Assembly: GCF_009863025.1 (NCBI RefSeq) | Contig: NZ_WWIR01000643.1 | Location: 1-64,000, forward strand | Source: Streptomyces sp. SID4985 | GTDB lineage: Bacteria > Actinomycetota > Actinomycetes > Streptomycetales > Streptomycetaceae | Direction: 5' to 3' | Length of the DNA stretch: 64,000 nt | Shown here: positions 3,781-59,879 of the stretch, piece after piece | Position numbering within the stretch: position 1 is the stretch's first letter | How the letters are laid out: each line of letters begins with the position of its first letter | Position numbers and translations under genes: made by a program | The notes under the pieces: generated by a model | What the model was told of the DNA's origin: nothing | What the model saw: only the letters and a program-made list of their open reading frames with translations | Database searches by the model: none

Positions 3781-5064
3781 GTGATCGTCGCGATCATGGC
3801 CCCGCGTTCCGGCAAGACGAGCGGACTGGCGATCCCGGCGATTCTCTCGGCGCCCGGCCCGGTCCTGCTCACCAGTAACAAGGCCGCGAACGATGCCTTC
3901 ACCGCCACGGTGGACGCCCGCGCCGAGGTCGGCACGATCTGGACGCTGGACCCCCAGCAGATCGCACACCATCCGCGCGAGATGTGGTGGGACATCCTGG
4001 CCGACGCCCGCGACCTGGCCGGGGCAAAACGCTTGGCCGGGCACTTCGTCGCCGCGAGCGTGGACGAGTCGAGCGGCTCCGACTTCTGGTCCACCGCCGC
4101 CTCGAACACGTTGGGCGCGCTGTTCCTGGCCGCCGCGAGCCACCGGCGGCCGATCACCGATGTCCTGGCCTGGCTCGCCACTCCCGCCGACCGGACCCCG
4201 GTGGACCTGCTCACCGACGCCGGCCACGACGCGGTCGCCGCCCAGCTTCAGGGCACCGTGTCCGGTGCGACCGAGACCCGCGACGGCATCTACGAGACGG
4301 CTCGGCAGTACGCGAGCTGCTTGCTGGACCCGGATGTCGCCGCCTGGGTCACACCGAACGCAGACCTTCCCGAGTTCACGCCGTTCGCCTTCGCCACCTC
4401 CCGCGACACGCTCTACCTCCTGAGCAAGGACGGCGGCGGCAGCGCGAGCGCGATCATCGCGGCGGCGGCCGACGCCGTGATGCGTGCGGCCGTCATCGTC
4501 GCCGAGCGCTCCGGCGGACGGCTCGACCCGCCCGCCCTGTGCGTCCTCGACGAGGCCGCCAACGTGTGCCGCATCTCGGATCTGCCCGACCTCTACAGCC
4601 ACTTGGGCAGCCGGGGCGTCATTCCCATGACGATCCTGCAGTCCTACCGGCAGGGCCAGCGCTGCTGGGGCGAGGCCGGCATGGACGCCCTGTACTCCGC
4701 CGCCACCATCAAGATCATCGGAAGCGGGATCGACGACGCGGACTTCGCCGACCGGCTCAGCAGGCAGGTCGGTGACCACGACGTCCAGACCACCTCGGTG
4801 TCCACCAGCGAGAGCGGCAAGTCCACCTCGGTGAGCATGCGCACCGAGCGGATCCTGCCGCCCGACGCGATCCGCGCCCTCCCCAAGGGGAAGGTGCTGC
4901 TGCTGGCCACCGGCATCCGTGTCGCCATGCTCAACCTCAAACCCTGGTACAAGGAATCCTCCGCCAAGGTGGTCGGCCCGGCCTCCGCGCGCGCCACGCA
5001 GGCGATCACCGAGCGAGCCCTGGCGAAGAGCATCGGGCGCGACGACTTCGGGCTGTCGGCGTGA
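3781..5064 (+). CDS. type IV coupling protein (VirD4-like), ATPase part
   Basis: The product has 427 residues if it starts at the GTG at 3781, but the homologous frame is open back to at least 3700. A Walker A-like motif (APRSGKTS, residues 7-14) and a Walker B-like motif (LCVLDEAANV, about 255-264) mark it as a TraG/VirD4 ATPase. The C-terminal region IRALPKGKVLLL fits the family. It powers DNA or protein substrate transfer at the membrane. The membrane anchor lies in the preceding frame. Without frameshift correction or slippage this product would be cytosolic and probably inactive in conjugation. Confidence 0.75.
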   Translation: MIVAIMAPRSGKTSGLAIPAILSAPGPVLLTSNKAANDAFTATVDARAEVGTIWTLDPQQIAHHPREMWWDILADARDLAGAKRLAGHFVAASVDESSGSDFWSTAASNTLGALFLAAASHRRPITDVLAWLATPADRTPVDLLTDAGHDAVAAQLQGTVSGATETRDGIYETARQYASCLLDPDVAAWVTPNADLPEFTPFAFATSRDTLYLLSKDGGGSASAIIAAAADAVMRAAVIVAERSGGRLDPPALCVLDEAANVCRISDLPDLYSHLGSRGVIPMTILQSYRQGQRCWGEAGMDALYSAATIKIIGSGIDDADFADRLSRQVGDHDVQTTSVSTSESGKSTSVSMRTERILPPDAIRALPKGKVLLLATGIRVAMLNLKPWYKESSAKVVGPASARATQAITERALAKSIGRDDFGLSA

Positions 5065-24927: not shown

Positions 24928-26688
24928 TCAGCGGCGTGTTGGGCAGCCGCGCGGTTCCGGGACGGCAGGCCGGACCGCCGCTGTGGGTGCGTTCCGTTCG
25001 CTGATGCGGTTGGTCGAGGTGTTGGTCGGGCGGGTGGCCGCCTGCGGGCGACGGGGGGCTTCGCCGGGGTGGGCGGGGAGCCGGGCGATCCGGCGCAGGC
25101 GCCAGACCAGGACGTCGTTCACGTCCGCGGCGGTGTCGAGTTCGCGCATGTCGATGGCCTGCCGCAGGAGGTTCTCGGGGTCGTACCCCGCCTGCTCGGC
25201 CTGCGCAAGGGTAGCGATCAGGGCGTCGTCCTTGGTGGACGTGCTGTCTGCTCCCAGCTCCCGCTCCGGCAGAGCTGCCCGGATGGTGGTCTCGTGGGTT
25301 CGGCGGTCGGCCTCGGGGAGGGCACGGCCTTGCTCGCTCAGCACTCGCATCGGCGTGGTGGCGGCCTGGCGATAGGCGGCGCGCAGGTGCTCGGCGGCCT
25401 GTCGGGAGGCGTGGGCCTGCTGGGCGTGACTGCGGGCGGAGTGCCAGCGTGCGGCGGCGAGGGTGACCAGGACCAGCGTGGAGAGGAGCATGGCGGTGGT
25501 GCCGCCGTCCTCGCCCCAGCCGAGAGCACGGTCGGCCCGGACGATCCCTCGAGCGGCCGAGCGGAGGGCCCGGGTGTCGGCACGTTCTGCTCGGACGTGG
25601 CTGCGGGTCGCGCGCTCGAAGGCCCGGGCGGCGGCGGCCAGCTCGGCGCGGGTGGCGGCCGGGGAGGTCTGGGCGAGGGCATCCAGGAGCTCTCCGACAC
25701 CGACGAGCTGGGCGGCGGCTTCGTCGTCATCGCCGTCGAGAAGGGATGCGGCGTGCTCGGCGATGCCGGTAGCGCTGCGTCGCTCCCTGGCGGGCGGCGA
25801 CCAGCTCGCCTGCCCGCCGACAGCCGAAGGCGTCGTTCGCTCGACGGTGCCGTCGGCCAACCGGCGGCGGATCTTCGGGAGGGACAGGTCGGGGGCCAGC
25901 TTGGAGCCGGAATACCAGACCGGTTCACCGCTGCGGTTGCGGTCACCAGGCAGGGCGACGGTGTAGCCGAGCGCGTCGCGGGACGGAGCGTCGCGCATCT
26001 TCACGCGCAGACCCGCCGCGCGGAGCCGGGCGAAGAACTCCTTCTCGTCGCGCGCTCCCGCGACTGCCTGGCGGACGGCTTCGCGAAGCGTCTCGCGGGC
26101 GGTGTCGGGGCGGCCGGTGCGTTCGGCCTTGAACCTCTCTGCGCTCGTGGGGTTCTTCGCTGCGGTGCCGTCGCCGGCGTTGAGGCGGCGCAGGCCCATC
26201 TCCTTCTCGATGCGGCGGCATTCGGCCTGGGCCTTGTTGAAGTCGTAGTTCAGGCGAGGGTTTCGGAGGTCGCCTCGGACCAGGGTGGCGACGATGTGGA
26301 TGTGGTCCTCTGCGTGACGGACCGCGATCCACCGGCAGCCGTCGGGGTCGCCGTCCGGGGCGATGCCGGTGGCGTGGACGATGCGCTGGGCGATGGCGTT
26401 CCATTCCTCGTCGGAGAACCGCCGGTCGCCGGGAGCGGTCCGCACCGAGCAGTGCCACACGTGCTTGGCGGGCGCGCGGTCGCCAGCCTGCTTGACCCGA
26501 AGGTCAAGCGCGGCGGTGAGACGGGCGAGGGCTACCTTCGGGTCGGTGTCGCGACCGGGGTCGGGGGCGAAGCCGTCCCAGGAGCCGACGAGGTGCGCGT
26601 CGGTGTGCTCCTCGCGCCGGCCGGGGCCGTAGAGGTAGACGAGGAGACCGTGAGTGCGCGAACCGCGTCCGATGTCGGGAACCATCAC
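24928..26688 (-). CDS. relaxase (MobA/VirD2-like)
   Basis: The 586-residue protein has the relaxase pattern. The HUH-type metal site is H125 with H129-x-H131 (EDHIHIVATLV), preceded by WHCSVRTAPGDR and followed by RNPRLNYDFNKAQAECRRIE. It should nick one strand at oriT, stay linked to the 5' end and pilot it to the coupling protein. The catalytic Tyr is probably Y18 or Y20 near the N-terminus. The C-terminal half holds a long helical region and one hydrophobic segment. Its start overlaps the MobC stop by four bases. Confidence 0.85.
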   Translation of the reverse strand: MMVPDIGRGSRTHGLLVYLYGPGRREEHTDAHLVGSWDGFAPDPGRDTDPKVALARLTAALDLRVKQAGDRAPAKHVWHCSVRTAPGDRRFSDEEWNAIAQRIVHATGIAPDGDPDGCRWIAVRHAEDHIHIVATLVRGDLRNPRLNYDFNKAQAECRRIEKEMGLRRLNAGDGTAAKNPTSAERFKAERTGRPDTARETLREAVRQAVAGARDEKEFFARLRAAGLRVKMRDAPSRDALGYTVALPGDRNRSGEPVWYSGSKLAPDLSLPKIRRRLADGTVERTTPSAVGGQASWSPPARERRSATGIAEHAASLLDGDDDEAAAQLVGVGELLDALAQTSPAATRAELAAAARAFERATRSHVRAERADTRALRSAARGIVRADRALGWGEDGGTTAMLLSTLVLVTLAAARWHSARSHAQQAHASRQAAEHLRAAYRQAATTPMRVLSEQGRALPEADRRTHETTIRAALPERELGADSTSTKDDALIATLAQAEQAGYDPENLLRQAIDMRELDTAADVNDVLVWRLRRIARLPAHPGEAPRRPQAATRPTNTSTNRISERNAPTAAVRPAVPEPRGCPTRR

Positions 26689-46939: not shown

Positions 46940-47304
46940 GCCTGCTGCCATGTCGGTTCTGGTGCCACACCGACACTTCCGTGGAGACGCTACCCGACGA
47001 CCAGACCGTGGAGACGCCGGAGGACGCAGTCCACTGGGTCCGCGAGTCCGTCCGGGGCGTCTTCCTCTCCTTTGACCGTCGCGTGTTCCACCGGACGTGG
47101 GGGTGGCTCGGAGACCACCGGGCCGTGGACGCCGGAATCGTCCACCTTCAGGGGGGACGACCCTACGAGTTCGCCGTGAAGGTTCGAATGGGCCGTTGGC
47201 GGTGGAGCGCGCACCCGGTTCGGGTACTCCCGCTCGCCACCCTGTGCGGGCGTCCGGTCAACTCCAGTTCCAGCAGGCCCTCCGTCGTGTCGGAGGCGTC
47301 ATGA
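46936..47304 (+). CDS. hypothetical protein
   Basis: The 122-residue protein starts at an overlapping GTG. It contains DAVHWVRESVRGVFLSFDRR and YEFAVKVRMGRWRWSAHPVR, suggesting a small alpha/beta domain. Family unknown. It overlaps the GntR-like gene by four bases, so it belongs to the same operon. Confidence 0.55.
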   Translation: MSLLPCRFWCHTDTSVETLPDDQTVETPEDAVHWVRESVRGVFLSFDRRVFHRTWGWLGDHRAVDAGIVHLQGGRPYEFAVKVRMGRWRWSAHPVRVLPLATLCGRPVNSSSSRPSVVSEAS

Positions 47305-48548
47305 CATTCGAGATCGACACGACCTACAAGGACCTCCGCCGCGGTCTCTCTCAACTCGCCCGACTAGGAGTCGAGTCCAGTGATCCTGCTGACACGACGG
47401 ATGAGAGGCAGCAGGCCCAGGACCTGGTGGACTTGTGGCTGCCGCTCGCCGAGACCCGTCTACGCGAGGCCGCCGAATCGCCGTCGGATCAGGCGCGCTG
47501 GCGCAAGGCCATCCAGGGCGTGGCACCCCCCGAGGAACCGAACGCCGAGGGGGCGGAGGCCGAGGGGGCGGAGGCCGAGGGGGCGGAGGCCGAGTCGGAC
47601 TTCGTGGCCTTCCTCAGCGGCGCGCGTGTCCTTCTGCGCTGCCTGCTGGATGCTGAGCGGCCCGGCCCGCAGGTCGTCGCCATCGCTGACCGCGTACGGA
47701 AGTTGATCAAGGATGGCGAGTACCCCGCTGGGTCATGGCTGAATGTCAGTCGCATCGCCACCGAGGCCGGGTGCATGGCGGTATCAGTCGAGCGTGCGCG
47801 CGTTGCTCTCCGCGACCTTGAGGCTGAGGGGCTCATCACCTTCAACCCCTCGTCCAGTCGGCCGCGTGTCGTGGGAGAAGCCAAGGAACCCGACCAGCCG
47901 ACCCGGATCGCGGGTTGGCTTCGTGTGCTCATAGCCGAGGGCGTATATCCCCCATATTCCAACCTTCCTACGGGCGTGCAGCTGGCGCGCGCTCTGGCCA
48001 CGCAGCCGAGAGACGTCACAGCAGCGATGCGCATCCTCGCCACCGAGAAGATCCTGAACTACCGCCCCAACATGCGCAGGCTGAGAAAGCCCTGGCCGCC
48101 CACCGATGTTGCGCCGCCCCCGGAGATCGCAGATCTGGCGCAGAAGTTACGCGGCCTCGTGGCCGGGGACCTGGATCTCAGTCCCTCGAACGTCCGGATC
48201 GTCTGCCAGCGCGCGAGGAACTGGTGGCGGTGCCGAATCACGCCTCCTGTCGACCAGCTGGAGGTCACCTTCCGCACGCTGGTCGGCGCGGCCTCGCACC
48301 TCTTCACGCTCTTGGAGACGCGGCCCGCGTACCAGGACATGGACACGCTGCTGCGGCGCACGGCCGTCACCGCCCTCGTGGAGCTGCCGGATGACTTCCA
48401 GGAGCGCGTGTGGCGGACGGCATGCCTGGCCGTCGCGGTGCTCGAACTCCAGGAAGTCGCAACCGCGTTGGCGAGGCGCAGGGAGTACATCCGCCAGGTG
48501 GTGGGTCCGGACCGAGGTGCTACCGGAGGCTGCATCTTTCCCATCTGA
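47301..48548 (+). CDS. tandem GntR-type winged-helix regulator
   Basis: The 415-residue protein has two GntR-like winged helices: one at about 140-195 (IADRVRKLIKDGEYPAGSWL, VERARVALRDLEAEGLITF) and one at about 205-258 (AGWLRVLIAEGVYPPYSNLP, AAMRILATEKILNY). Before them lies an acidic GAEAE repeat made by three 15-bp tandem units (about 47548-47595). The C-terminal 150 residues are helical and unassigned. It is probably the cassette's transcriptional regulator. Confidence 0.7.
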   Translation: MTFEIDTTYKDLRRGLSQLARLGVESSDPADTTDERQQAQDLVDLWLPLAETRLREAAESPSDQARWRKAIQGVAPPEEPNAEGAEAEGAEAEGAEAESDFVAFLSGARVLLRCLLDAERPGPQVVAIADRVRKLIKDGEYPAGSWLNVSRIATEAGCMAVSVERARVALRDLEAEGLITFNPSSSRPRVVGEAKEPDQPTRIAGWLRVLIAEGVYPPYSNLPTGVQLARALATQPRDVTAAMRILATEKILNYRPNMRRLRKPWPPTDVAPPPEIADLAQKLRGLVAGDLDLSPSNVRIVCQRARNWWRCRITPPVDQLEVTFRTLVGAASHLFTLLETRPAYQDMDTLLRRTAVTALVELPDDFQERVWRTACLAVAVLELQEVATALARRREYIRQVVGPDRGATGGCIFPI

Positions 48549-48587
48549 GATACCCATCAACGAACCTGAACGAAAGGTAATTTCATA

Positions 48588-49046
48588 GTGAATAGCATGA
48601 TGCCCATCCTGCTGGCCGGTCTGGCCATCGCCGGTGTCGGCGTTCTCCGCCTCGTGCAGGCGGAGAGGCACCAGCGGCAGCGGAACATCCTGGCGACGAC
48701 CCAGATGGATCAGGAGTGGCGGCGCCACCTGGAGAGCGACCCCGAGTTGCTGAAGCTCTGGGCCCCCGAAGGCGATGACGCCATGGGCCTCGGCCAGTAC
48801 GCCCGAGTCCTGAGCGCCAACCAGCTCGTCTGCGCGCTCGCCGCCCGCTACAAGGTGGGCCTCCTGGACGCGGCCACGCTGCGTGTTCAGGCCCACTGGC
48901 TGATGTCCCGTTCAATCGGCCGCGACTACTGGGACGAGTGCAGGGCGCTCCGCGACGCCGAGGCCCTCGACCGGTTCGACCGTCGCTTCAACCGGATCTT
49001 GAACGACGAGTTCGTCCCTCGTTCGAAGGCCGACACCATCGCCTGA
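48588..49046 (+). CDS. DUF6082-like membrane-anchored protein
   Basis: The 152-residue protein starts at GTG 48588 and has one N-terminal membrane segment (MPILLAGLAIAGVGVLRLV). A cytosolic helical domain follows (EWRRHLESDPELLKLWAPEG, YWDECRALRDAEALDRFDRR). This layout is typical of the Streptomyces DUF6082 family. Function unknown. Confidence 0.65.
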   Translation: MNSMMPILLAGLAIAGVGVLRLVQAERHQRQRNILATTQMDQEWRRHLESDPELLKLWAPEGDDAMGLGQYARVLSANQLVCALAARYKVGLLDAATLRVQAHWLMSRSIGRDYWDECRALRDAEALDRFDRRFNRILNDEFVPRSKADTIA

Positions 49047-49061
49047 AACAGCCTGATTGCG

Positions 49062-49184
49062 GTGCTGAGCACCACCTCTGATCTCCGCGCTGAGCTCACC
49101 GCCACGCGCGGGCATTCCCCCCTGCCGCCGGGCGACCATCCCTCCCTCGGCCTCGGCGGCAGGGGCACCACCTCGACGCCGTAG
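49062..49184 (+). CDS. possible 40-residue peptide before the radical SAM gene
   Basis: A GTG-started frame encodes a 40-residue peptide (VLSTTSDLRAELTATRGHSP, then a Gly/Thr/Ser-rich end). It lies 31 bases before the radical SAM start. No convincing ribosome-binding site precedes it, so it may be chance. Listed because such peptides can be modification substrates. Confidence 0.2.
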   Translation: MLSTTSDLRAELTATRGHSPLPPGDHPSLGLGGRGTTSTP

Positions 49185-49214
49185 CAGATTCATCACCTCC
49201 CTAGGAGATATTCA

Positions 49215-50279
49215 ATGCTCAAGTCCGTCCGCCACCTGGAAGAGGTGGCCCGCGAGTGGACGATCAACCCCGAGGACGTCCTGCTGATCGCGCTGAACAG
49301 CTGTGGAGCGCGCTCGCCGTTGGACAAGCCGCGCATGAGGTTCCAACTGGCACTCGACTCCCGGCCGGCCGACCCGTCGTACCTGATCCTCTCTCTGGGG
49401 CGCGAGGACTCGCCCTTCGAGGTCGACGAGCACGAGCTGCGACTGCACGGTGAGCGGGTCGGCTCGATCAGCGGCATCGAGGACGATGACGCCGTGCTGG
49501 GCTACTGGCGCAACGGCACGAAGATGCTCACGCTGAACTCGAACCAGCGCTCCCAGTGCACCGGCTGCACGTTCTGCCCGAACACGCTGGAGGGGGCCTC
49601 GGACCCGGCGATCCGCGAACTCGACCTGCCCGGCTACTTCGCTACGCTCGCGGCGAACTCGGGGATGGCGGATCTGTCAGGGGTGGAGACCGTGACGGTG
49701 TGCACGGGCTGCTTCCTCTACGAGCATCTGGCGCTGGAGCACCTGGAGGGCGTGCGCGCCGCCATGCGGAGCACTGACTGCGAGGGCACGCTGCACTTCC
49801 TGTCGTCGGTCCTCACCACCGCCGAGGGCTTGGACCGGGCCGCCGATGTCGGACCGTTCCATCTGACGCTGACGGTGGAGTGCTTCACCAACAGGGCCAA
49901 CATCCTGAAGCAGTCCAAGGCCGCGCTGAGCGTCGACCAGATGGTCGAGACGCTGGGGGCGGCGAAGGAGCGGGGCATCACCACGGACTTCACCTACATC
50001 GTCGGCCTGGACCCGATCGAGGAGGCGCTGGAGAACCTGAAGCGGCTGGTACCCGTGACCACGACGTTCCCGCGGTTCCAGACGTATCAGGCGCACAACC
50101 CGTACATGGACGTCTACCGCACGCCCGGCTCGGACACGATCGACTGGAACCTCTCGATGCGCCGCACGGTCGAGGAGCTGTTCTTGGACACCGGCCTGCG
50201 CCCGCAGTGGTGGCAGAACTACCGCTCCCCGTGGGCCTACACCTTCGGCCAGGAGCCGCTGACCGGGGCACGGATCTGA
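49215..50279 (+). CDS. radical SAM-like enzyme with CX2CX2C motif
   Basis: The 354-residue protein has AGGAG upstream of the ATG. Cys115, Cys118 and Cys121 (QCTGCTFCPN) should bind the 4Fe-4S cluster, although the spacing is one residue shorter than the canonical CX3CX2C. A second CTGC follows at 163-166. The C-terminal part (TLTVECFTNRANILKQSKAA, GITTDFTYIVGLDPIEEALE) fits a radical SAM barrel. There is no SPASM or B12 domain. Substrate unknown. It starts a seven-gene cassette and overlaps the next start by one base. Confidence 0.75.
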   Translation: MLKSVRHLEEVAREWTINPEDVLLIALNSCGARSPLDKPRMRFQLALDSRPADPSYLILSLGREDSPFEVDEHELRLHGERVGSISGIEDDDAVLGYWRNGTKMLTLNSNQRSQCTGCTFCPNTLEGASDPAIRELDLPGYFATLAANSGMADLSGVETVTVCTGCFLYEHLALEHLEGVRAAMRSTDCEGTLHFLSSVLTTAEGLDRAADVGPFHLTLTVECFTNRANILKQSKAALSVDQMVETLGAAKERGITTDFTYIVGLDPIEEALENLKRLVPVTTTFPRFQTYQAHNPYMDVYRTPGSDTIDWNLSMRRTVEELFLDTGLRPQWWQNYRSPWAYTFGQEPLTGARI

Positions 50280-51442
50280 TGGCCGGGTCAATCAACTGCA
50301 CCGGCTCGGTCGTGCGGGCGGTGCGCGTGTGGCCGGTGGCGGGACAGACCGCCGGGCTGCCTGACTCGCTGCCTGATCCGATCGCCGCGGTCGCGGTGCC
50401 CCCGGCGGGGCCGTCGTGGCCGGAGCACCGGACCAGGTTCGCGGTCGAGGTGGTCGGCGACGGGGCGTCGGGCTGGCACGCTCCCGTGGGTGAGGCCGTG
50501 GCGCGGCTCGTCGTGGACACCCTCGCCGACGGGGTGGTGGGGCACGACGCGGCGGCACCACGCAAGCTCGCCTACCGGCCGCGAGCGAGCCGGCACCAAC
50601 AGGGAGCGCACGCGCGCCAGGCCGTGTCGGCCGTCGAGCTGGCGTGCTGGGACCTTGCCTCCCGGGTATCGGGACGTACGGTGCCGGAGCTGCTGGGTGG
50701 CACGGTGCGGGCGCACGTGCCGGTGTACGCGTCCGCGCTCGGTTTGGACACTGCCCACCCCGAGGCGGTGAAAGCGGCGGCGTGGATCTCCGAGCAGGGG
50801 TTCTGGGGTCAGAAGTGGCCGCTCACCAAGGAGTTGCTGCGTCAGGGTCCCGGGGCCGTCGCGCGGGTACTCGGGACCTTACGGGAGGCAGCGGGCGAGT
50901 GCCGGTTCATGGTCGACGGGCTCAGACGCTGTCGGCTGGACCAAGCACTCGCTTTGCTGCCGATCCTCGCGGACCTTCGCGTCGCCTTCGCAGAGGAGCT
51001 GCTGGAGCCGGGCGGCTTCGCCTGGGCGCGGGTGCGGGCGGCTGGAGCCGGGGTGCCTATGGCGGCCGGCGAACATGCGGTTGATGAGCACGAGCAGACT
51101 CGGCTCCTGGCCGGCGGTGCGGTGGACGTGTGGCAGACCGACCCGGGATGGTCGGGCGGCCTGGCCCGTTCCCTGCACACCGTCGAGGTCGCCGCCGACC
51201 TGGGGATCCCGACGTTCCCACACGGCGACCGGCTGTGGGCGGCGCTCGCGCTGGCCGGCGCGTGCTGCCGGGACAAGGTCCCTGCGGTGGAGTGGCACCT
51301 GACGCTGGAGCCGCTGCGGCAGCGGGTGTTCACTGATCCGGCCGCTGTCGAGGCGGGGATGCTGCCGTCCGGGCCCGGGATCGGGCTCGCCCCGACCCCG
51401 GTCACCACGTCGCCTCTTCCGGCGTGGACGGTCGGGTCATGA
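50279..51442 (+). CDS. enolase-superfamily enzyme (mandelate racemase/sugar-acid dehydratase type)
   Basis: The 387-residue protein has the capping domain (HARQAVSAVELACWDLASRV) and barrel of the mandelate racemase/muconate lactonizing group. Likely metal ligands are D213, E239 or E240, and E265. K179 (GQKWP) and H315 (FPHGD) are candidate acid/base residues, as in rhamnonate-type dehydratases. It should abstract a proton alpha to a carboxylate and probably dehydrates a sugar-acid-like substrate. It overlaps the HAD gene start by four bases. Confidence 0.75.
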   Translation: MAGSINCTGSVVRAVRVWPVAGQTAGLPDSLPDPIAAVAVPPAGPSWPEHRTRFAVEVVGDGASGWHAPVGEAVARLVVDTLADGVVGHDAAAPRKLAYRPRASRHQQGAHARQAVSAVELACWDLASRVSGRTVPELLGGTVRAHVPVYASALGLDTAHPEAVKAAAWISEQGFWGQKWPLTKELLRQGPGAVARVLGTLREAAGECRFMVDGLRRCRLDQALALLPILADLRVAFAEELLEPGGFAWARVRAAGAGVPMAAGEHAVDEHEQTRLLAGGAVDVWQTDPGWSGGLARSLHTVEVAADLGIPTFPHGDRLWAALALAGACCRDKVPAVEWHLTLEPLRQRVFTDPAAVEAGMLPSGPGIGLAPTPVTTSPLPAWTVGS

Positions 51443-52149
51443 CCGGCCCGATGGCATGGTCCGGGGTGCGGGCGGTCTGCTTCGACCTGGGCGGCACGCT
51501 GGTGCGGCCCGAGCCGGTGGCGACGACCGGCCAGGTCGCGGAGGTGTTGGGCATCTCCCTGGAGGAGGCCCGCGCCCTGATGGGCAAGGGCGCCAAGCGG
51601 CGCCTGGTCAGCCCGCGGGACCTGGCGCACGAACTCGCGGACCACTTCGGTCGCAGCGCGTTGGCCGGCCCGCTCGCCGAGGTGTTGGAGCGGGCGCGGT
51701 GCCGGGCCGAGGACCCGCAGCTCTACCCGGAGGTGCCGGACACGCTGGTCGCTTTGCGGGAGCGAGGCTTCGCCTTGTTCGCCATGACCAACGCGCTCGG
51801 CTCATCGGTGCCCGAGCAGGAGCCGGAAGTCTTCCGCACGCTGCTGGACGGGGTCTTCTACTCGGCGCGCACCGGCGCGATCAAGCCCGAGCGTGAGGCG
51901 TTCGCCGCTGTCGAGCGCGCCAGCGGGCTCCGGCCGGAAGAGCTGCTGCACGTCGGTGACTCGGTGGACGCCGACGTGCGGGGAGCCTCGTCGGCCGGGT
52001 GGCTGACGGCCTGGCTGGACCGGCACCGCGCACCCGAAGGGCTGGTGCCCGCCGCGAGTACGCCGCGCCTGCACTCCCTCGATTCCCTCTCCCTGCTGCT
52101 GCCCACCCATTCGGGCAGCAGCACGATCGCACCGGAGGTGGCCGGCTGA
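51439..52149 (+). CDS. HAD-family hydrolase
   Basis: The 236-residue protein has HAD motif I with nucleophile D16 (FDLGGTLV), motif II (MTNA), motif III (KPER) and motif IV (GDSVDADV). G18 replaces the usual second Asp of phosphatases, which is seen in part of the family and leaves phosphatase activity less certain. It most likely removes phosphate, or handles a related group, from a cassette intermediate. Overlaps on both sides show tight coupling. Confidence 0.8.
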   Translation: MTGPMAWSGVRAVCFDLGGTLVRPEPVATTGQVAEVLGISLEEARALMGKGAKRRLVSPRDLAHELADHFGRSALAGPLAEVLERARCRAEDPQLYPEVPDTLVALRERGFALFAMTNALGSSVPEQEPEVFRTLLDGVFYSARTGAIKPEREAFAAVERASGLRPEELLHVGDSVDADVRGASSAGWLTAWLDRHRAPEGLVPAASTPRLHSLDSLSLLLPTHSGSSTIAPEVAG

Positions 52150-53306
52150 TGGAGCCGTCCCGTACACCCCGTTCGGCAACACCTTCCGTCCACACCCCAC
52201 TCACGCCGTCCGTGCCGCTGTTCGATGCGAGCCAGCTTCCGCTGCGCACCTGGTGCGAGGGCAGCCGCGAGGACGCCGTCACCGGTCTGGTCGCGTTCCC
52301 CGACTTCCACAGCCACATCCCGCGCTGCCTGGCCGCGGCCCTCGACAGCGGGCGCCTGGTCGCCCTGGCGATCGGGGACGTCGACGGGCTGAAGGACCAC
52401 GTGGAGCGGACGAACTCCACCAACCCCGCCTCCTACGGGCACCTGGCTGGCAACGAGGTCATGGCGACCGTGGGGGCCACGACCCGCGCATGGTTCCACG
52501 AGCAGCCCTTCAACTCCGGGTGCGCGGCGACGTTCGGCGGAGACGAAGTCATCCTCGCGGCGGTTGTGGAAGACGCCGACCAGTTCCATCAGGCCCTAGG
52601 CACGCTGCGTGACCGGCTCGGTGCCGCGCTCCCGGTGACCGTCTCCTTTGCCCTCGCGTTCGTCGTCGGCAGCGACCTGCCGTCCGAGCGGGATCGCGGC
52701 TGGAATCACCACTTCACCAACGTGCTGCTGGCGACGGTCGACCGGACGTTGTTCACGCACAAGGCGGCACGCCGCGCAGGCGGCAACGACGGCGGCATCA
52801 TCGCCGTTACCCGGCCGCCACAGCATCGAGAACCTGCGGAGACGGGAACCGGCCCCTCACCGCTCCTCCCGATGCCGGTCGGCACCGAGATCATGCGTGT
52901 CATGGCCCGCCCGGCCCGAGTCGGCGGCAGAGACTTCCTGCTGCTGCCCTGCCGCGGGCCGATCGGCCAGCGCGGTACCCGGCTCCGCATCACCTTCCCC
53001 ACCGGCACGTCCAAGACCGTCGTCGCCTACGCGCTGCGCGGCCAGGCCGCGGTGCCGTACACCGCCGTCGCCACCGGCGTGACAAGAGTGCCGCTGACGG
53101 TGCAGGCGGTACGGGACCGCACGCCCCGCAGCGTGCCCCTGGACCTGGCGACCGCGCTGGAGCGGGCAGGGCTGGACTGGACGGCGGTCCCCGCCCACGA
53201 ACAGGCACAGATTCTCCAACTGATCAAGGAGGCCGGAACGTTGGAGATCCGGGCCGGACGGATCACCGCTGCCGTGGATACGGTCGCCGCGCGGAAGGGC
53301 CGCTGA
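52149..53306 (+). CDS. GGDEF-domain protein with C-terminal YdeI/DUF1905-like domain
   Basis: The 385-residue protein has a GGDEF domain at about 44-205. It includes TGLVAFPDFHSHI, IGDVDGLKDHVE (D77, D79), GHLAGNEVM and GGDEV (130-134), so residues for diguanylate cyclase activity look kept. The C-terminal 120 residues (TAVATGVTRVPLTVQAVRDR, PLDLATALERAGL, IRAGRITAAVDTV) resemble DUF1905/YdeI proteins. There is no sensor or membrane domain. Its presence inside a metabolic operon is odd. Confidence 0.7.
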   Translation: MEPSRTPRSATPSVHTPLTPSVPLFDASQLPLRTWCEGSREDAVTGLVAFPDFHSHIPRCLAAALDSGRLVALAIGDVDGLKDHVERTNSTNPASYGHLAGNEVMATVGATTRAWFHEQPFNSGCAATFGGDEVILAAVVEDADQFHQALGTLRDRLGAALPVTVSFALAFVVGSDLPSERDRGWNHHFTNVLLATVDRTLFTHKAARRAGGNDGGIIAVTRPPQHREPAETGTGPSPLLPMPVGTEIMRVMARPARVGGRDFLLLPCRGPIGQRGTRLRITFPTGTSKTVVAYALRGQAAVPYTAVATGVTRVPLTVQAVRDRTPRSVPLDLATALERAGLDWTAVPAHEQAQILQLIKEAGTLEIRAGRITAAVDTVAARKGR

Positions 53307-53307
53307 A

Positions 53308-55461
53308 GTGACCGACACCGTACTGCCTCCCGGCCTCGCCGTCGCAGGGCCCGAGGGCTTCCCCGGCTGGAGCCACGCCGTCCGGCACGCGACGGACCGC
53401 GTGCCGGATGACGCCGTCAACTCCGCCTGGCGAGCACTCAATTACCTGTGTACCGCACAGCTCTACCTGCGCGACAACGTCCTGCCGGTCCGCGCCCTCC
53501 GAGCGGACGACGTGAAGGAGTCCCCAAGTGGACACTGGGGTGTGTGTCCTCCGGTCAACTGGATGCTTGCCCATCTCGGACCGATCACCGCCTGGCGGCC
53601 GCCCGGCAGCGAGGTGCTGACCGTCCACGGTGCCGGGCACGCCAGCCCTTCCGTACTCGCCCACGCCTACCTCACCAAGACCGTCGCCCTGACCGGCAAC
53701 GACCCATGCTGGTCGGCAGCGGAGCTGCAAGCGCTGGCCGCAGGCTTCCCGCACACCCGGACCTACGGCGGGGAGATCACCCCGCTCATCCCCGGCGTGC
53801 GCTACACCGGTGGCCAGCTCGGGCCGGCACTCGCTGTCGCGCAAGGCATGGTCCTCGATGCCCCACACCGGCTCGTGGTGCCGCTCCTCGGCGACGGAGA
53901 GCTGGAGACCGGCGCAGCGTCAGCCGCGTGGATGGCCCGGCGCGCGCTGATCGGATCGGGCCTCCACGGCGCGGTGCTGCCCGTCGTGCTCGCCAACGGC
54001 CTGCGGATGGGCTCCCCCTCGGTGCTGGCCGGTCTCAACGAGGACGAGGTGCGTGCGTACTTCACGGGCCTGGGGTACGAGCCGTTCCTTCACGACGGTT
54101 CCGATGTGCGCGGCTTCCGGCGGGTCCTCGCCGAGGCGCTCGCACGGTTGCGCCCACTCGGGCTCGCCGGTCCTCAGCCGGTACTCGTCCTGACCATGCC
54201 TAAGGGGGCAACCGGGCCCGAGCAGATCGCCGGGCACTGGATCGCCGGAACTCCTGCGGTTCACAAAACCCCGCTGAAGGACCCCCGGCACGACCGGGAG
54301 GAGTTCGAGGCCCTCAAGGCGTGGCTTGCGTCGTACAAGCCGTCGGAACTGTTCACCGAGGACGGCCAGCCCTGCGGGCTCGTCCGTCAGGCCCTGCCCC
54401 ACCCGGTACCCCGATCCCGCCCGGCCCCGCCGGTCGCACCGCTCACGGTCCGGGGCTTCGCTGAATGGCCGCTGATCAGCGCCGTGATCCGCGAGCGCGC
54501 GGCGGCGGGAGGCTTTCGGTTGTTCAGCCCCGACGAGGCCGCCTCGAACCGGCTGCACCTGGCCACCGACGGCCGTGGAACACCGCAATGGGCGAACGAG
54601 ATCCTCAACGAGGAGATCTGTCACGCCTGGCTCCAGGGCTACACCGAGACCGGCCGGGACGCACTGCTGGCCACCTACGAGGCGTTCGCCGCAGTCAACA
54701 CCAGCCTGCTCGTCCAGCACCTCAAGCACTGCAGCGCACGGGCCGCCACCAGCGCTGTCGGGCTGCCGAGCGTCAACTACCTGATCACCTCACTGGGCTG
54801 GCGCAACACCTACACGCACCAGAATCCGGGGCTCGTCTCCGCGATGCTGGAGACGGAAAACCCGGCCGTCCACGTCTACACACCCGCCGACGCCACCCGG
54901 GCGGCCGCGATCCTCGCCGTCATGCTCACCGAGCGCGACCGGGTGAACTTCCTGGTCGCCGACAAGCACCACACGCTCACGTTCCCGCCGGACACCCTGC
55001 GCGACGAGCTGACCGACGGGGCCGCGATCTGGCCCCACCTGAGCACCTTCGGCGCTGAAGACCCGGACATCGTCCTCGCCTCCGCCGGGGACGTCGCAGC
55101 GCGCGAACTCTCTGCGGCCGCCGAGCGAATCGCCGCTGAACGCCCTGGTCCACGCATCCGCTACGTGAGCATCAACGACCTCACCGTCCTCGGCGCACCG
55201 GACACCTGGTCTGCCGCCCTGACCGACCGCGCCTTCTCGCAGCTCTTCCCCGAGAACGTCCCCCTGCTGCTGGCCACCGTCACACAGGCCCCAGCTGTAC
55301 GGGCGCTGCTCGCCGCCCGCGGTGAAACCGCCCGGTTCCGCGTGGTCGGCTACCGCGACCCCGGCCGCCCTCTGCCCCCGACCGACCTGCTGGAGCACTG
55401 CGGCATGTCCGCCGCACAGCTCGCCGCCCAGGCGACCTCGATGCTCAAGGAGCCACGATGA
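53308..55461 (+). CDS. divergent phosphoketolase
   Basis: The 717-residue protein follows the D-xylulose-5-phosphate/fructose-6-phosphate phosphoketolase layout: GHWGVCPPVNWMLAHL, HGAGHASPSVLAHAYL, TPP motif LLGDGELETGAASAAW, LFSPDEAASNRLHLATDGRG, and DPDIVLASAGDVAARELSAA. It is shorter than typical enzymes (about 790-800) and key segments are altered (for example GAGHAS for GPGHGG, and HQNPG for HQDPG). The canonical reaction gives acetyl phosphate and an aldose phosphate. Here the substrate may differ. Confidence 0.8.
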   Translation: MTDTVLPPGLAVAGPEGFPGWSHAVRHATDRVPDDAVNSAWRALNYLCTAQLYLRDNVLPVRALRADDVKESPSGHWGVCPPVNWMLAHLGPITAWRPPGSEVLTVHGAGHASPSVLAHAYLTKTVALTGNDPCWSAAELQALAAGFPHTRTYGGEITPLIPGVRYTGGQLGPALAVAQGMVLDAPHRLVVPLLGDGELETGAASAAWMARRALIGSGLHGAVLPVVLANGLRMGSPSVLAGLNEDEVRAYFTGLGYEPFLHDGSDVRGFRRVLAEALARLRPLGLAGPQPVLVLTMPKGATGPEQIAGHWIAGTPAVHKTPLKDPRHDREEFEALKAWLASYKPSELFTEDGQPCGLVRQALPHPVPRSRPAPPVAPLTVRGFAEWPLISAVIRERAAAGGFRLFSPDEAASNRLHLATDGRGTPQWANEILNEEICHAWLQGYTETGRDALLATYEAFAAVNTSLLVQHLKHCSARAATSAVGLPSVNYLITSLGWRNTYTHQNPGLVSAMLETENPAVHVYTPADATRAAAILAVMLTERDRVNFLVADKHHTLTFPPDTLRDELTDGAAIWPHLSTFGAEDPDIVLASAGDVAARELSAAAERIAAERPGPRIRYVSINDLTVLGAPDTWSAALTDRAFSQLFPENVPLLLATVTQAPAVRALLAARGETARFRVVGYRDPGRPLPPTDLLEHCGMSAAQLAAQATSMLKEPR

Positions 55462-56309
55462 CCACCACCCCGGCCGTTCCCGATCCCGCGCAGCTGGCCG
55501 CGTTCGACCGCGACGGCTTCCTCATCCTGCGGGACGCTCTCACCCCCGATGACCGCCACCACGCCGCCGACGCCGCCGCGCATCTCCTGAACGGTGACCG
55601 GACGGTGGGCCGCGACCGCTCAGTCGACGGCAAGGACGGCTTCCGCGGGGTCGTCGCCCTGGACGACGCCTTCCTCCCGCTCGTCACCAACCCGGGCGTC
55701 CTGCCCACGGTCGTGGCGCTGCTCAGCCCCAACATCCACCTGATGTCGAGCAACCTGATCGCCATGCCGTCCCTGCCGGACGAGGAGCGCACCATCCGCG
55801 TGCCCGCCCGGCACGGCTGGCACCGCGACATGTCCTCCACCCTGGCCGACCTCGGCATCGAAGGCACCCCCCGCCTCGCGATCAAGGTCGCGTACTTCCT
55901 CACCGACCCCGGCCCGGATGCCGGCTTCACCATGTTCGTACCCGGCAGCCACACCCGCACCGGGCCTGTCACCGTGCCCCCGGGCGACATCGACCCGCCC
56001 GGCGCCCTCACCCCGGGCATCGGGCAGTACGACGTGGTCCTCTTCGAGAACCGCACCTGGCACGCTGGCGGCCTCAATCGCTCCGGCCGCACCCGGCTGG
56101 CCGTGATGATGCAGTACGGCTACCGGTGGCTCAACGCCGTAGACGACCCCTCCCCCACCTTGCTGGACCGCGCGAACCTCGGGGCCGTCGAACGGCAACT
56201 CCTCGGCGCGCGGGACCGCAACCCCGACGGCTCCGTCGCCCGCGAAGGCTCCGGCGGACGCCCCCTGACCGACTGGTGGCAGCACCTGAACACCACCCCG
56301 GCCCGCTGA
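55458..56309 (+). CDS. phytanoyl-CoA-dioxygenase-family Fe(II)/2-oxoglutarate oxygenase
   Basis: The 283-residue protein has the iron site H122-x-D124 (HGWHRDMS) and H202 (RTWHAGG). R211 or R213 (SGRTRLAVMM) binds 2-oxoglutarate. The N-terminus QLAAFDRDGFLILRDAL is typical of PhyH proteins. It should hydroxylate, desaturate or otherwise oxidise a pathway intermediate. It overlaps the phosphoketolase stop by four bases. Confidence 0.85.
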   Translation: MTTTPAVPDPAQLAAFDRDGFLILRDALTPDDRHHAADAAAHLLNGDRTVGRDRSVDGKDGFRGVVALDDAFLPLVTNPGVLPTVVALLSPNIHLMSSNLIAMPSLPDEERTIRVPARHGWHRDMSSTLADLGIEGTPRLAIKVAYFLTDPGPDAGFTMFVPGSHTRTGPVTVPPGDIDPPGALTPGIGQYDVVLFENRTWHAGGLNRSGRTRLAVMMQYGYRWLNAVDDPSPTLLDRANLGAVERQLLGARDRNPDGSVAREGSGGRPLTDWWQHLNTTPAR

Positions 56310-56353
56310 CCGATCTCCGACGCCCGACCGCACCACCACGAGAGACTGGAACC

Positions 56354-57160
56354 GTGACCTCCTCCCCCTACACGCCCGAAGAACTGTTCGCGTCCACCGC
56401 GCCGTACTACGCCCGCTACCGCCCCGGCTACGCGCCGGAGTTCTACGAACTCCTCACCGAGCGCTTCCACCTGGACGGCACCCAGCGCGCCCTCGACCTC
56501 GGCTCCGGCCCCGGCATCCTCGCCCTGGAACTCGCGCCCCTCCTCGGCCAGGTCGTCGCGGTCGACCCCGAGAAGGGAATGCTCGAAGAGGGCCGCCGCC
56601 TGGCCGCCGAGCGCGGCATCACCAACATCGACTGGCGCGAGGGCGACTCCACCACCCTCCCGGCCATGTCCATCGGACCCGTACTACTGACCGTCATGGG
56701 CGCCGCGTACCACTGGATGGACCGCGAACAGGTCCCACGCGACCTGGACCGCATCATCGAGCCCGCCGGCGCGATCGTCCTCGCCTCCGGCGGCGCCCCC
56801 GGCGACGTCGCCCCCGCACCGTGGCGAGAGGTGGTCGACCGGGTACGTACGCGCTACCTCGGCCCCGAACGCCGGGCCGGCAAGGGCACCTACTCCCACC
56901 CCAAGGAACGCCACCAGGACGTCCTCGCCCGCAGCCCGTTCTCCCAGATCGAGATCGACCGCTGGGACTACACCCTCACCCGCACCGTCGACGAGGTCAT
57001 CGGCTGGGTCTTCAGCCTCTCGTACTCCAGCCCCGCCCAACTCGGCAACAAGAAGGATGCCTTCGAGGAAGACCTGCGCAAGGCACTGCTCGACTTCGCC
57101 CCCTCCGGACGGTTCGACGAGACCATCCGCACGGAGGCCGTGATCGCGACCAGGCCCTGA
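56354..57160 (+). CDS. class I SAM-dependent methyltransferase
   Basis: The 268-residue protein has motif I LDLGSGPG (48-55), motif II VVAVDPEKGML and the substrate-entry region YYARYRPGYAPEFYELL. GAAYHWMDREQ is typical of small-molecule methyltransferases. The start is the GTG at 56354, 44 bases after the dioxygenase. It is the last gene of the cassette and may add the final methyl group. Acceptor atom unknown. Confidence 0.8.
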   Translation: MTSSPYTPEELFASTAPYYARYRPGYAPEFYELLTERFHLDGTQRALDLGSGPGILALELAPLLGQVVAVDPEKGMLEEGRRLAAERGITNIDWREGDSTTLPAMSIGPVLLTVMGAAYHWMDREQVPRDLDRIIEPAGAIVLASGGAPGDVAPAPWREVVDRVRTRYLGPERRAGKGTYSHPKERHQDVLARSPFSQIEIDRWDYTLTRTVDEVIGWVFSLSYSSPAQLGNKKDAFEEDLRKALLDFAPSGRFDETIRTEAVIATRP

Positions 57161-57399
57161 TCGAAAGCGGCCCGCCGGTCACACCACTCTCGACCGGTCA
57201 GACACGAAGGCGCGCAGCCCTCCTGATTCCGGCCGGAACTCCTTCTCGCCGGAAACGGGCCGGATGCGCCAAGGCACCTGAACCGATAGGTTTTTCGAGG
57301 GAGTTACTGTTGTCCGGACTTCGAGCCCGGCATCACGTGCCGACGCCGGCGGTACGAGTGGTGAGCCCGCGGGAGGCCGACCGCCGATGGTCGGGGGCG

Positions 57400-57720
57400 T
57401 CACGTGGCGACCAGGGCGGCGGCCAAAAGCAGTTCGGCGATGTCACCGCCGTAGTACATGGTCTCGGCACCTGCCCGCACCTGGGGGATGACGGCAGGAT
57501 GTCGGCCCACAAGCCGCAGTACATCATCTGGGCGACGACCGCGTGGGCGGCGATGGCGACGCCCGGGCAGGCCAGCCGTACGCGCACGCCTGGCCGTGAG
57601 GGGTCGGGCTCTGCGATGGCGTAGGCGAGAATCGCGAAGCTGCCCGTGGACAGCGCCGACGCGACCGCGAGGTGCGCGATCATGCGCGCGGGCGGACTGT
57701 GGTGCACGGTGGCCATCGCC
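57400..57720 (-). pseudogene. CtaG-like copper/cytochrome oxidase assembly protein remnant
   Basis: The minus strand encodes ATVHHSPPARMIAHLAVASA, FAILAYAIAEPDPSRPGVRV and VAIAAHAVVAQMMY, then after a shift in a CCCCC run near 57490, TMYYGGDIAELLLAAALVAT. This is the C-terminal membrane part of a CtaG-type protein. The N-terminal spans are absent. Confidence 0.55.
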
Positions 57721-57838
57721 CATCTCCGCCCCTGGTCCCGGACTCCGCTGGAGATGGCCCAGCCGCAGCCTCCCTCCTCCACGGCTCGCTCGCGCGTGCG
57801 GGTCCGCCACCCGCCCCAGCGGCGGTCGGTGAGCACGG

Positions 57839-58357
57839 GTCAGGACAGCGCGAAGTAGCGCAGCCACACGTAGGCCAAAGAGACGGTCAGAGTAACGGCG
57901 GTGACGACCAGGCCGTACTTGGTGAACCCTGGCCCTGCTGGTGGTGATCGTCGGTGGCCTCACGCTGACGCTGACCGCGCTCGCCGTACGGCTGCACATC
58001 GGCATCCCGGGCGCCGACTCCACGCAGATCGCCGACATCGCACACGCCGCGACCGGACCGGGCCGGCTGTACGGCGCCTTCCAGCTCACCAGCTCGCTCC
58101 TGCTGCTCGCCGCCGCCAGCTCCTCCTTCCAGGCCGGCCCGGGTCTGCTCAAGGCACTGTCCGGCACCCCCGACAAGCCCGGTGTGCCGCCTCTGGTGCT
58201 CGCCCGGACCGACCGCCACCACACCCCCTACTGGTCCGTGCTGGTCTACCTGGTCGCGGCCACGCTCCTCATCGCCGTGGACCTCTACGCCCGCCGGAAC
58301 CGGGCCGGCCGTCCCACTGGCATCGAGAACGTCGAGGCGCAGGCGGAAGGGGCTTGA
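57839..58357. pseudogene. APC-type amino-acid permease fragments in opposite orientations
   Basis: On the plus strand, 57926-58357 encodes VVIVGGLTLTLTALAVRLHI, SSSFQAGPGLLKALSG and ARTDRHHTPYWSVLVYLVAA, the middle of an APC permease. On the minus strand, 57839-57925 encodes FTKYGLVVTAVTLTVSLAYV and a stop, the C-terminus of the same kind of protein. The two pieces meet back to back near 57925. Confidence 0.5.
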
Positions 58358-58486
58358 ACAGGGCTCAGGTCAGGGTCGGCTGGGGCACGATACACGGAGC
58401 GGCATTATCACCTGATCCCTGCCGCTCCAAAACCTGACCGTTGCGGACACTCGATCCTCCGTCTTATCTCATCCCGAGGACCGCGT

Positions 58487-58672
58487 ATGCCCGCACAGTT
58501 CATGAACGCCAAGCAGACGGCTGAATATCTGAACATGTCCATGACCTGGGTCTATCGGGATGCGCCGAAACTCGGGCTTACTCCTTACAAGTTCGGACGC
58601 GGACGCAGCGCCAAACTGCAGTTCAAGATCACCGACGTGCGGGCCTGGGCTCAGCAGCAGAAGCTCGGCTGA
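58487..58672 (+). CDS. xis: excisionase-like helix-turn-helix protein
   Basis: The 61-residue protein has one MerR/AlpA-type helix-turn-helix: MNAKQTAEYLNMSMTWVYRD, then YKFGRGRSAKLQFKITDVRA. It lies next to the integrase in convergent orientation, separated by a hairpin. Proteins of this type act as recombination directionality factors, helping the integrase excise the element. Confidence 0.75.
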   Translation: MPAQFMNAKQTAEYLNMSMTWVYRDAPKLGLTPYKFGRGRSAKLQFKITDVRAWAQQQKLG

Positions 58673-58684
58673 ACCTTGTCCACG

Positions 58685-58716: not shown

Positions 58717-58724
58717 TCTACCTG

Positions 58725-59879
58725 TCAGGCCGCGAGCGCCATGTCCAGCACCTGGGCTGCCTTACCGATCGACCCCGGCATCAGGTGCCGGTAGATCTTA
58801 AACGTCACATCGAGGCTCTTGTGGCCCATCCACTCGGCGACGTCGGTGATCGGGATGCCGTTGCTCAGGCAGTTCGATGCGAAGAAGTGACGGTTGCCGT
58901 AGAGGACCATCCCTTCCGGGATGTCCACCTCCTCTGACGCCTTGACCTTCTTCCACTGGTTGTCCATCGCCCAGTACGGGTACGGCTTGCGGGGATCGGT
59001 TGGCTGCCGCAAGAGGTAGCCGTCATACGTACCGTACTTCCCGGCATACCACTCGATCGTCTCCCTGATGCGAGCAGGCAGAGGTACGTCTCGGTACTCC
59101 CCGACCTTCCGGTGCTTAAGCGGTCCGTAGCGCCTGGTGGATACGACGACCTGCTCACTGACCCGGTACACGTCGTCAGCCACGATGTTGTTGATGTTCA
59201 CTGCGGATGCCTCGCCGTTACGCAGACCGCAGCCACTCATCAGGTCGACGATCAGCATGAAGGCGTCATCGCCTGCCGCGCGTATCCCGCGGAGCTGTTC
59301 GAGGGACGGGATGACGGCTCGCGCCGGATCGTACTGCGGCGGTTTCACACCGAGCAGGGGGTTGTCGGGGAAGATCCCCAGCCGGTGGGCGTCCAGAAGG
59401 ATCGCACGGAGCTTGTCGAACGCGTTGGCCTGAGTCGGAAGCCCCGTTTGCATGCGCTCCATGGTGCGGATGAAGTGGTCCACCACCTTGTGGTCGAACG
59501 AGTTCATCCGCCGGCTGCCGAGCGCTGGATAGAGGTGATGCTCCAGGAGCGACTCAAGGTGCCTCACCGAGGCGACGGCCAGATGTCGTTGACCGGCCTT
59601 CCACTCCTCGACGTACTCCTCGAAGCGCATCGCGCCGTACTTCTGGATGCGCTCCGCCTTCGTCTGGGACTGCCGACTGGCCTTCTTCTCGTTGTAGATA
59701 TCGGTCAAGCGCGTGATCGCCTTGTCCTGCGTGGCGAACCCGGCCTCCTCGGTCTGCCTGCCCGCTGCGTTGCGATACCGGATCTTGTAGTCGTGCGGGC
59801 ACTTCGACCAACGAGATTGAGGGTGCTCGCAGTCCTTGAAGAAGGTGCCCATACCGCGAGCAAGTGTGCGTGCTGCCAT
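58725..59879 (-). CDS. int: tyrosine site-specific integrase
   Basis: The 384-residue protein has a SAM-like core-binding domain (about 85-180) and the catalytic domain with R220 (GCGLRNGEA), R330, H353 (MGHKS) and nucleophile Y363 (KIYRH). The usual box II HxLR is YGNR here, so the first catalytic His is replaced by Y327 while the following H331 is kept. It should integrate and excise the element. Its 5' end faces the attachment site next to the interrupted permease gene. Confidence 0.9.
   Translation of the reverse strand: MAARTLARGMGTFFKDCEHPQSRWSKCPHDYKIRYRNAAGRQTEEAGFATQDKAITRLTDIYNEKKASRQSQTKAERIQKYGAMRFEEYVEEWKAGQRHLAVASVRHLESLLEHHLYPALGSRRMNSFDHKVVDHFIRTMERMQTGLPTQANAFDKLRAILLDAHRLGIFPDNPLLGVKPPQYDPARAVIPSLEQLRGIRAAGDDAFMLIVDLMSGCGLRNGEASAVNINNIVADDVYRVSEQVVVSTRRYGPLKHRKVGEYRDVPLPARIRETIEWYAGKYGTYDGYLLRQPTDPRKPYPYWAMDNQWKKVKASEEVDIPEGMVLYGNRHFFASNCLSNGIPITDVAEWMGHKSLDVTFKIYRHLMPGSIGKAAQVLDMALAA

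Follow-up and report, generated by a model that had tools for sequence, protein, structure and literature searches.

LipA, HydG, PylB, MqnE and viperin are radical S-adenosylmethionine (SAM) enzymes (rSAMs) that carry a CX3CX2C cluster motif. Other motif spacings occur in the rSAM superfamily; to our knowledge, no rSAM family with CX2CX2C spacing has been described. Phosphoketolases of the XFP type, such as those of Protein Data Bank (PDB) entries 3ahc and 8io8, have chains of 796 to 845 residues, and the galactonate and rhamnonate dehydratases belong to the mandelate racemase (MR) subgroup of the enolase superfamily. In the Hypr GGDEF proteins, which are cyclic GMP-AMP (cGAMP) synthases, a serine at the guanine-reading position broadens base specificity (PMC6456294). 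Here we analyzed a 64,000-nucleotide stretch of Streptomyces sp. SID4985 (contig NZ_WWIR01000643.1, forward strand; hereafter the window), in which seven plus-strand genes at positions 49215-57160 bring relatives of all of these together. Judging from the sequences, we consider it fairly probable that they form a mobile cassette whose enzymes would build a small and probably diffusible metabolite from a (phospho)sugar or a sugar acid.

The first gene encodes the rSAM (49215..50279). It is followed by an enolase of the MR subgroup (50279..51442; PF13378, 103 bits; PF02746, 28 bits), a HAD-IA hydrolase that is likely a phosphatase (51439..52149; PF00702, 68 bits), a fusion protein of GGDEF and YdeI/OmdA-like domains (52149..53306), a divergent phosphoketolase-family thiamine pyrophosphate (TPP) enzyme with a GTG start (53308..55461), a PhyH-type Fe(II)/2-oxoglutarate (2OG) dioxygenase (55458..56309; PF05721, 51 bits) and a class I SAM-dependent methyltransferase, also with a GTG start (56354..57160; PF13649, 48 bits). 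The enolase (MR_MLE), HAD, phosphoketolase (all three XFP domains), PhyH and methyltransferase proteins score above the Pfam cut-offs; the rSAM was assigned from its motif and predicted fold, and the fourth protein from profile, fold and motif evidence. Four neighboring pairs overlap, by 1 nucleotide (nt) (rSAM/enolase and HAD/GGDEF-YdeI) or by 4 nt (enolase/HAD and phosphoketolase/PhyH), and the two gaps measure 1 nt, before the phosphoketolase, and 44 nt, before the methyltransferase. Comparable small overlaps were found in other copies of the cassette. The gene map and the domain and fold searches therefore bear out the original prediction, made from the DNA alone, in its coordinates, its gene identities and the tight linkage of the genes. 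It had also stated that no polyketide, peptide-synthetase or terpene enzyme is present, and a Pfam scan of the seven proteins indeed revealed no signature domain of polyketide synthases (PKS), nonribosomal peptide synthetases (NRPS) or terpene enzymes, nor any amino-transfer, glycosyl-transfer or assembly-line enzyme.

We then looked for the cassette in genome collections (L and G numbers below are our labels for loci and genomes). Matches to the rSAM occur in 26/392 Streptomyces genomes, some as fragments, and in 8 plasmid records; at a stricter E-value, the rSAM profile matched 3 of 396 genomes sampled across the phylum, the window's own among them. A scan of genome contigs gave 71 rSAM loci: 54 from Actinomycetes by title, one from Candidatus Calidifonticultor, one from a metagenome-assembled genome (MAG) labelled Thaumarchaeota, and 15 others, from the candidate phyla radiation (CPR), DPANN, Treponema, Nitrospinota, Bacilli and Erysipelotrichaceae. 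As counted in six-frame translations with profile hidden Markov models, whose input proteins came for the most part from these loci, the 54 Actinomycetes loci hold the enolase in 53 cases, the HAD, YdeI-like and methyltransferase genes in 51 each, the phosphoketolase in 48 and PhyH in 43, partial matches included (L056 and L063 for the enolase, L056 also for PhyH, L104 for the methyltransferase, at 72 bits, and L122 for a broken phosphoketolase, at 140 bits). Further genes are YrdC (32 loci), creatininase (22) and GGDEF (16). Among the six loci lacking a phosphoketolase, three stop at a contig end (L063, L090, L115), two have lost the gene within a longer contig (L056, L072) and one has a truncated rSAM (L104). 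The search for the ordered set that accompanied the original prediction as a proposed check thus shows that the genes do co-occur elsewhere, in the same order or rearranged. Since the cassette recurs, the grouping of the seven genes is not due to chance.

Four layouts were found repeatedly. The order of the window (layout A) is shared by other Streptomyces, Streptacidiphilus and Actinomadura, and the genes are rearranged in many other actinomycetes. Layout N, on Nocardia pNF1, contains two extra rSAMs and one additional methyltransferase; layout B reads rSAM-phosphoketolase-enolase-YdeI-HAD-methyltransferase-creatininase-PhyH-YrdC, and layout C reads rSAM-enolase-YdeI-HAD-methyltransferase-PhyH-YrdC-phosphoketolase-PhyH. 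A copy on a Mycobacterium plasmid has the order GGDEF-rSAM-enolase-HAD-phosphoketolase. The accessory genes, namely creatininase, YrdC, Nudix, HD, a permease, a weakly ATP-grasp-like protein and the extra rSAMs, vary with the type, which suggests that related products are modified further in the other types. Such variation is seen in clusters with diversifying products, and we count it in favor of biosynthesis.

Outside these loci, the Thaumarchaeota-labelled MAG (L099), possibly misbinned, encodes HAD, methyltransferase, creatininase, phosphoketolase, rSAM, PhyH, enolase and YrdC within 12 kb and gave no match to the YdeI profile. A genome of another family of the phylum (G500, locus L136) has creatininase, phosphoketolase, rSAM, PhyH, YrdC, enolase, HAD, methyltransferase and, with a weak match of 19 bits, YdeI; one scan found an in-frame TGA in its rSAM, and another placed model positions 27-357 on a single open frame. 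Treponema lecithinolyticum (L109) has a contiguous rSAM-phosphoketolase-HAD group, followed by two genes without a Pfam match (366 and 261 residues) and two that match ABC transporter families. In the examined CPR, DPANN and Calidifonticultor loci, the rSAM adjoins a methyltransferase (L105, L107, L108, L110, L111, L113), a phosphatase family (PHP, His_Phos) or other genes. In two of them, both Patescibacteria (L111 and L113), the neighbor belongs to the methyltransferase family of the cassette (110-199 bits). Split TPP decarboxylase-like pairs were found in L111, L113 and L105. The last of these, a 3.7-kb contig of Candidatus Calidifonticultor (Actinomycetota, class Humimicrobiia) that is the same contig as L135 and was kept out of the 54 Actinomycetes loci, holds only the rSAM, a methyltransferase and the split pair. 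In the two Patescibacteria loci, the pair and the cassette-family methyltransferase precede the rSAM (L111, 2452-4405; L113, 8040-9999), and L113 has an APH-type kinase, a PHP-domain protein and a glycosyltransferase upstream.

The borders of the cassette are sharp. In blastn comparisons of the window with Streptomyces sp. WZ.A104 (L055), a plasmid of Streptomyces sp. NBC_01216 (L028) and S. nymphaeiformis (L057), a single stretch was obtained each time; it opens with the start codon of the rSAM (49215) and runs to 57156, 57158 or 57164, respectively. Because these edges coincide with the rSAM start and fall within 4 nt of the methyltransferase stop at 57160, the seven genes form a discrete module. 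With the closest relative, Streptomyces sp. LaPpAH-108 (L054; rSAM 98% identical), homology spans 43249 to 57314. The cassette genes are maintained under purifying selection, with dN/dS values of 0.13 to 0.66 for each gene measured between the window and eight other copies, in one of which (L062) the methyltransferase is cut off. Additionally, the distance matrices of the partners correlate with that of the rSAM: 0.96 for the enolase (54 loci), 0.92 for the methyltransferase (50), 0.91 for HAD (54), 0.76 for the phosphoketolase (44) and 0.61 for PhyH (46), after broken and cut loci had been removed by hand, and none of 500 permutations matched any of these values. The type A phosphoketolase is 50-52% identical to type C and 47-49% to type N, whereas the type A rSAM is 55-58% identical to type N and 39-41% to type C. 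Given these conflicting affinities, partner genes appear to have been exchanged between cassette types.

The phosphoketolase (XFP_N, 209 bits; XFP, 111 bits; XFP_C, 82 bits) has the three domains, the histidines, the TPP ligands and the lysine of 3ahc and 8io8 in a shorter chain of 717 residues. The residues that we take from XFP structures to be catalytic or TPP binding also match those two entries, and they are conserved among the homologues: H76, H111, D196, N230, K299 and H319 in 47/47, H504 and K553 in 46/47 and E458 in 44/47. (These and the following residue counts omit duplicate loci and proteins shorter than 500 residues for the phosphoketolase, 300 for the enolase, 180 for HAD and for PhyH, and 200 for the methyltransferase.) Identity to the other Streptomyces XFP proteins listed is about 34-38%. 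XFP matches occur in 317 of the 392 Streptomyces genomes; 16 of these reach at least 389 bits, and the next, at 328 bits, is of the ordinary type. By sequence, this phosphoketolase is a cassette-specific clade: all 16 genomes hold it in a cassette or a remnant, and 15 have the rSAM. In the sixteenth (G075), a truncated phosphoketolase lies next to what remains of a GGDEF-YdeI gene.

In enolases of this superfamily, an Asp/Glu/Glu set binds the metal, and a lysine and a His-Asp dyad act as bases. All of these residues are kept in 58-59 of 59 cassette homologues. The cassette enolase shares them with galactonate and rhamnonate dehydratases of the MR subgroup and differs from these in falling far below all NCBIfam cut-offs (best, 78 against 311 bits). 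The roles of the HAD and PhyH active-site residues are likewise assigned from their families. The HAD nucleophile Asp and the Gly at +2, the latter also present in the window protein, were found in 61/61 homologues, and the Lys and the motif IV Asp in 60/61 each; the His-Asp-His triad and the 2OG-binding Arg of PhyH (H122, D124, H202 and R213) were found in 48-49 of 49. The conserved phosphoketolase, enolase and HAD sites fit, and so support, the earlier proposal of a compound built from a sugar phosphate or sugar acid. A catabolic operon, with phosphoketolase and enolase degrading an unusual sugar or sugar acid, is an alternative: MR-type enolases and phosphoketolases include many catabolic members, and an amino-acid permease is encoded in one type of sister cluster. 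However, an rSAM, a PhyH dioxygenase, a methyltransferase and a YdeI-like domain are unexpected in catabolism, Pfam detected neither a sugar kinase nor an aldolase or sugar importer in the seven-protein set, and the spread of the genes across Streptomyces and the phylum is patchy. We thus regard a catabolic role as very improbable.

The rSAM scores 26.4 bits against Pfam PF04055, below the gathering cut-off of 29.5. Its AlphaFold2 model (predicted local distance difference test [pLDDT], 91) matches rSAM enzymes at Z scores of 12-14.2, the neighbors at Z 12-14 being LipA, HydG, PylB, MqnE, viperin and BioB. According to the model, the protein has the rSAM TIM-barrel fold, and no subfamily stands out among the matches. 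It shares the barrel with LipA, HydG, PylB, MqnE and viperin (Z 13-14), but unlike these CX3CX2C enzymes, it has a CX2CX2C motif, an additional N-terminal beta-rich region and no NCBIfam assignment; NCBIfam gave no match for the window protein and, over 48 members, only stray weak matches to one member each. CX2CX2C was found in 48 of 48 aligned rows and CX3CX2C in none. Loci had been selected with two patterns, C[VT]GCx[FW]CPN and W[EQ][CN]YR[PS][LP]W, and the count is biased where a row was picked up by the former; the rows without P at 122 and those without N at 123 (16 each) escape that pattern, yet keep the CX2CX2C spacing. A PDB sequence search returned a lone low-E match, 7bid (chain v31WRAP-T), with no single stretch passing, and a profile search did not repeat it. 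We rejected an identity with the arsinothricin-type rSAM ArsL, which carries CX3CX2C according to PMC8552651. A viral or phage origin was also rejected, as relatives of the rSAM are missing from the viral_contigs and phages collections.

The fourth protein had no Pfam match at an E-value of 0.01. Its GGDEF domain falls far under the NCBIfam cut-off and is backed by profile and fold searches (model pLDDT, 74). The GDVD and GGDE[VI] motifs are kept in all 21 loci examined, the window copy reading GGDEV. At the position of the guanine-reading Asp (GHxxGD), an alignment to SadC shows Asn in 18 of these loci, Cys in 2, Ala in 1 and Asp in none. In sister clusters, YdeI-like proteins occur on their own, and the C-terminal half matches these (hhalign, 98.7%); the YdeI label derives from Pfam OmdA, which 7 of the 18 homologues of this part match weakly (best E, 0.0024) and below its gathering score (first member, 13.4 against 25.6 bits). 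The replaced base-reading Asp is shared with the Hypr GGDEFs. These have Ser or Thr there and a GGDE[F/Y] motif (PMC6456294), whereas the cassette proteins have Asn, Cys or Ala, GGDE[VI] and a fused or adjacent YdeI-like domain. Given the altered residue and the Hypr precedent, the cassette GGDEF domain may, by analogy, use another nucleotide.

This brings up a different product, namely a modified nucleotide or nucleoside of the antibiotic or antiviral type, like the ddhNTP (3'-deoxy-3',4'-didehydronucleoside triphosphate) of viperin, in place of a sugar-derived compound. Besides the altered GGDEF residue, whose role is described in PMC6456294, such a product would fit the nucleoside hydrolase and pyrF-annotated genes adjoining the Nocardia copy, the Nudix and HD genes of other cassette types, viperin among the structural matches of the rSAM (Z 13.1) and the mobile and plasmid setting. 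However, viperin scores no better than LipA, HydG, PylB and MqnE, the phosphoketolase and enolase would have no obvious role, and the absence of rSAM relatives from the phage and viral-contig collections also argues against it. Moreover, the rSAM matches no PADLOC model. Among the seven proteins, only the methyltransferase has a match (mad2, via its methyltransferase domain), and we rejected a defense system or prokaryotic viperin on this basis. We consider a nucleotide product unlikely.

Within the 54 Actinomycetes loci, the cassette GGDEF (16 loci) and YrdC (32) are mutually exclusive: none has both, and six have neither (L056, L063, L090, L104, L115 and L122). The exclusion (L071-L101 versus L054-L070 and L102) looks as if either could substitute for the other. 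As a separate observation, a protein weakly similar to DAC (DisA nucleotide binding) adjoins the rSAM of a Micrarchaeota MAG; in a Nitrospinota MAG, a relative is encoded downstream of the rSAM (L124, 11136-11681; L110, 6271-6672). This is a further nucleotide-signalling-like fold beside an rSAM of the cassette family. The intact GGDE[VI] and metal-Asp motifs, together with the rSAM relatives in CPR and DPANN genomes, could also point to a cofactor-like or signalling compound for intracellular use, with the GGDEF domain as a regulator. A patchy cassette that is dispensable, as its deletions indicate (see below), the lack of an obvious client enzyme and the absence of the cassette GGDEF from YrdC clusters make this quite unlikely.

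Each of these three alternatives is less likely than biosynthesis, and the best reading is that of a diversifying, mobile cluster for a small methylated metabolite derived from a sugar or sugar acid, whose product and reaction order we infer. From the conserved active sites, we propose the following steps, the order of which is likewise a proposal. The MR-type enolase would abstract the alpha proton of a sugar carboxylate, leading to dehydration or epimerization, and the phosphoketolase would form an acyl-TPP from a 2-keto sugar phosphate, giving an acyl phosphate or acyl-transfer product and a shortened aldose phosphate. HAD would remove phosphate, the noncanonical rSAM would perform the key C-H radical step, PhyH would hydroxylate and the methyltransferase would cap the product. 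The GGDEF-YdeI protein may be a nucleotide-using pathway enzyme or a regulator; clusters without GGDEF carry YrdC. We put forward more tentatively, as a possibility that we rather doubt, that the cassette represents a new pathway class without a known counterpart. In it, a CX2CX2C rSAM family ranging over actinomycetes, a spirochaete, CPR and DPANN archaea would take as its substrate what a TPP enzyme makes (the phosphoketolase or, in some lineages, the split decarboxylase-like pair), and where YrdC is missing, a GGDEF domain of altered base specificity would have been recruited as a pathway enzyme.

Several observations weigh against a biosynthetic cassette. The distant rSAM relatives in CPR and DPANN genomes lack most of the cassette partners; therefore, the rSAM is not bound to the cassette pathway alone. 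In the closest relative, L054, the phosphoketolase (14094-15635) is internally deleted, with loss of conserved active-site residues, while the other six genes match over their full length. In Streptomyces sp. NBRC 110035 (L056, 6430-8192), a deletion joins the start of the enolase to the end of PhyH and leaves the rSAM and methyltransferase. The function of the cassette is therefore dispensable. No cassette-type phosphoketolase match was found in 11 of the 26 rSAM-positive Streptomyces genomes, several of which, in the subset examined, have a truncated rSAM, a deleted copy or a contig end. A flanking ATPase used as a control correlated with the rSAM at 0.54 (0/500 permutations, 12 loci only), so that shared descent accounts for part of the correlations. 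Finally, there is no exporter among the seven genes, and the product, the co-transcription and the enzyme activities are predictions.

The placement of the cassette on a mobile element, as originally proposed, is supported by other genes in the window: a TraG/VirD4-type coupling protein (3781..5064, plus strand; PF12696, 117 bits), a relaxase (24928..26688, minus strand; PF03432, 37 bits), a tyrosine integrase of the surrounding element (58725..59879, minus strand; PF00589, 43 bits; one match in its own genome) and an excisionase-like HTH_17 protein (58487..58672, plus strand; PF12728, E 1.4e-4, below the cut-off). We found no repeats of at least 17 nt between the integrase side (57101-60600) and the region upstream of the cassette (36001-49214). 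A GntR-type regulator (47298..48548, plus strand; PF00392, two stretches) lies 5' of the cassette, beyond its sharp edge, and is accessory; among the compared loci, it is present only in the closest relative. The cassette copy of a Streptomyces avidinii plasmid is preceded, some 7 kb upstream, by a CRISPR-Cas gene group of type I-U (L032, 151-5042).

We found no description of this gene set in an open-access library, the field that was searched, MIBiG and most subscription papers lying outside it; within that field, the earlier statement that no described pathway with this combination is known holds, and no equal cluster was found. We also know of no nucleoside or phosphonate cluster that matches the set. 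The cassette is thus likely novel. This family would probably escape standard cluster finders, which depend on PKS, NRPS, terpene or ribosomally synthesized and post-translationally modified peptide (RiPP) cores. The cassette would add an rSAM family with unusual cluster spacing and a phosphoketolase in apparent specialized metabolism; it might also provide a GGDEF domain that works outside cyclic di-GMP signalling. With its sharp borders and only seven genes, it could be expressed whole and its product identified.

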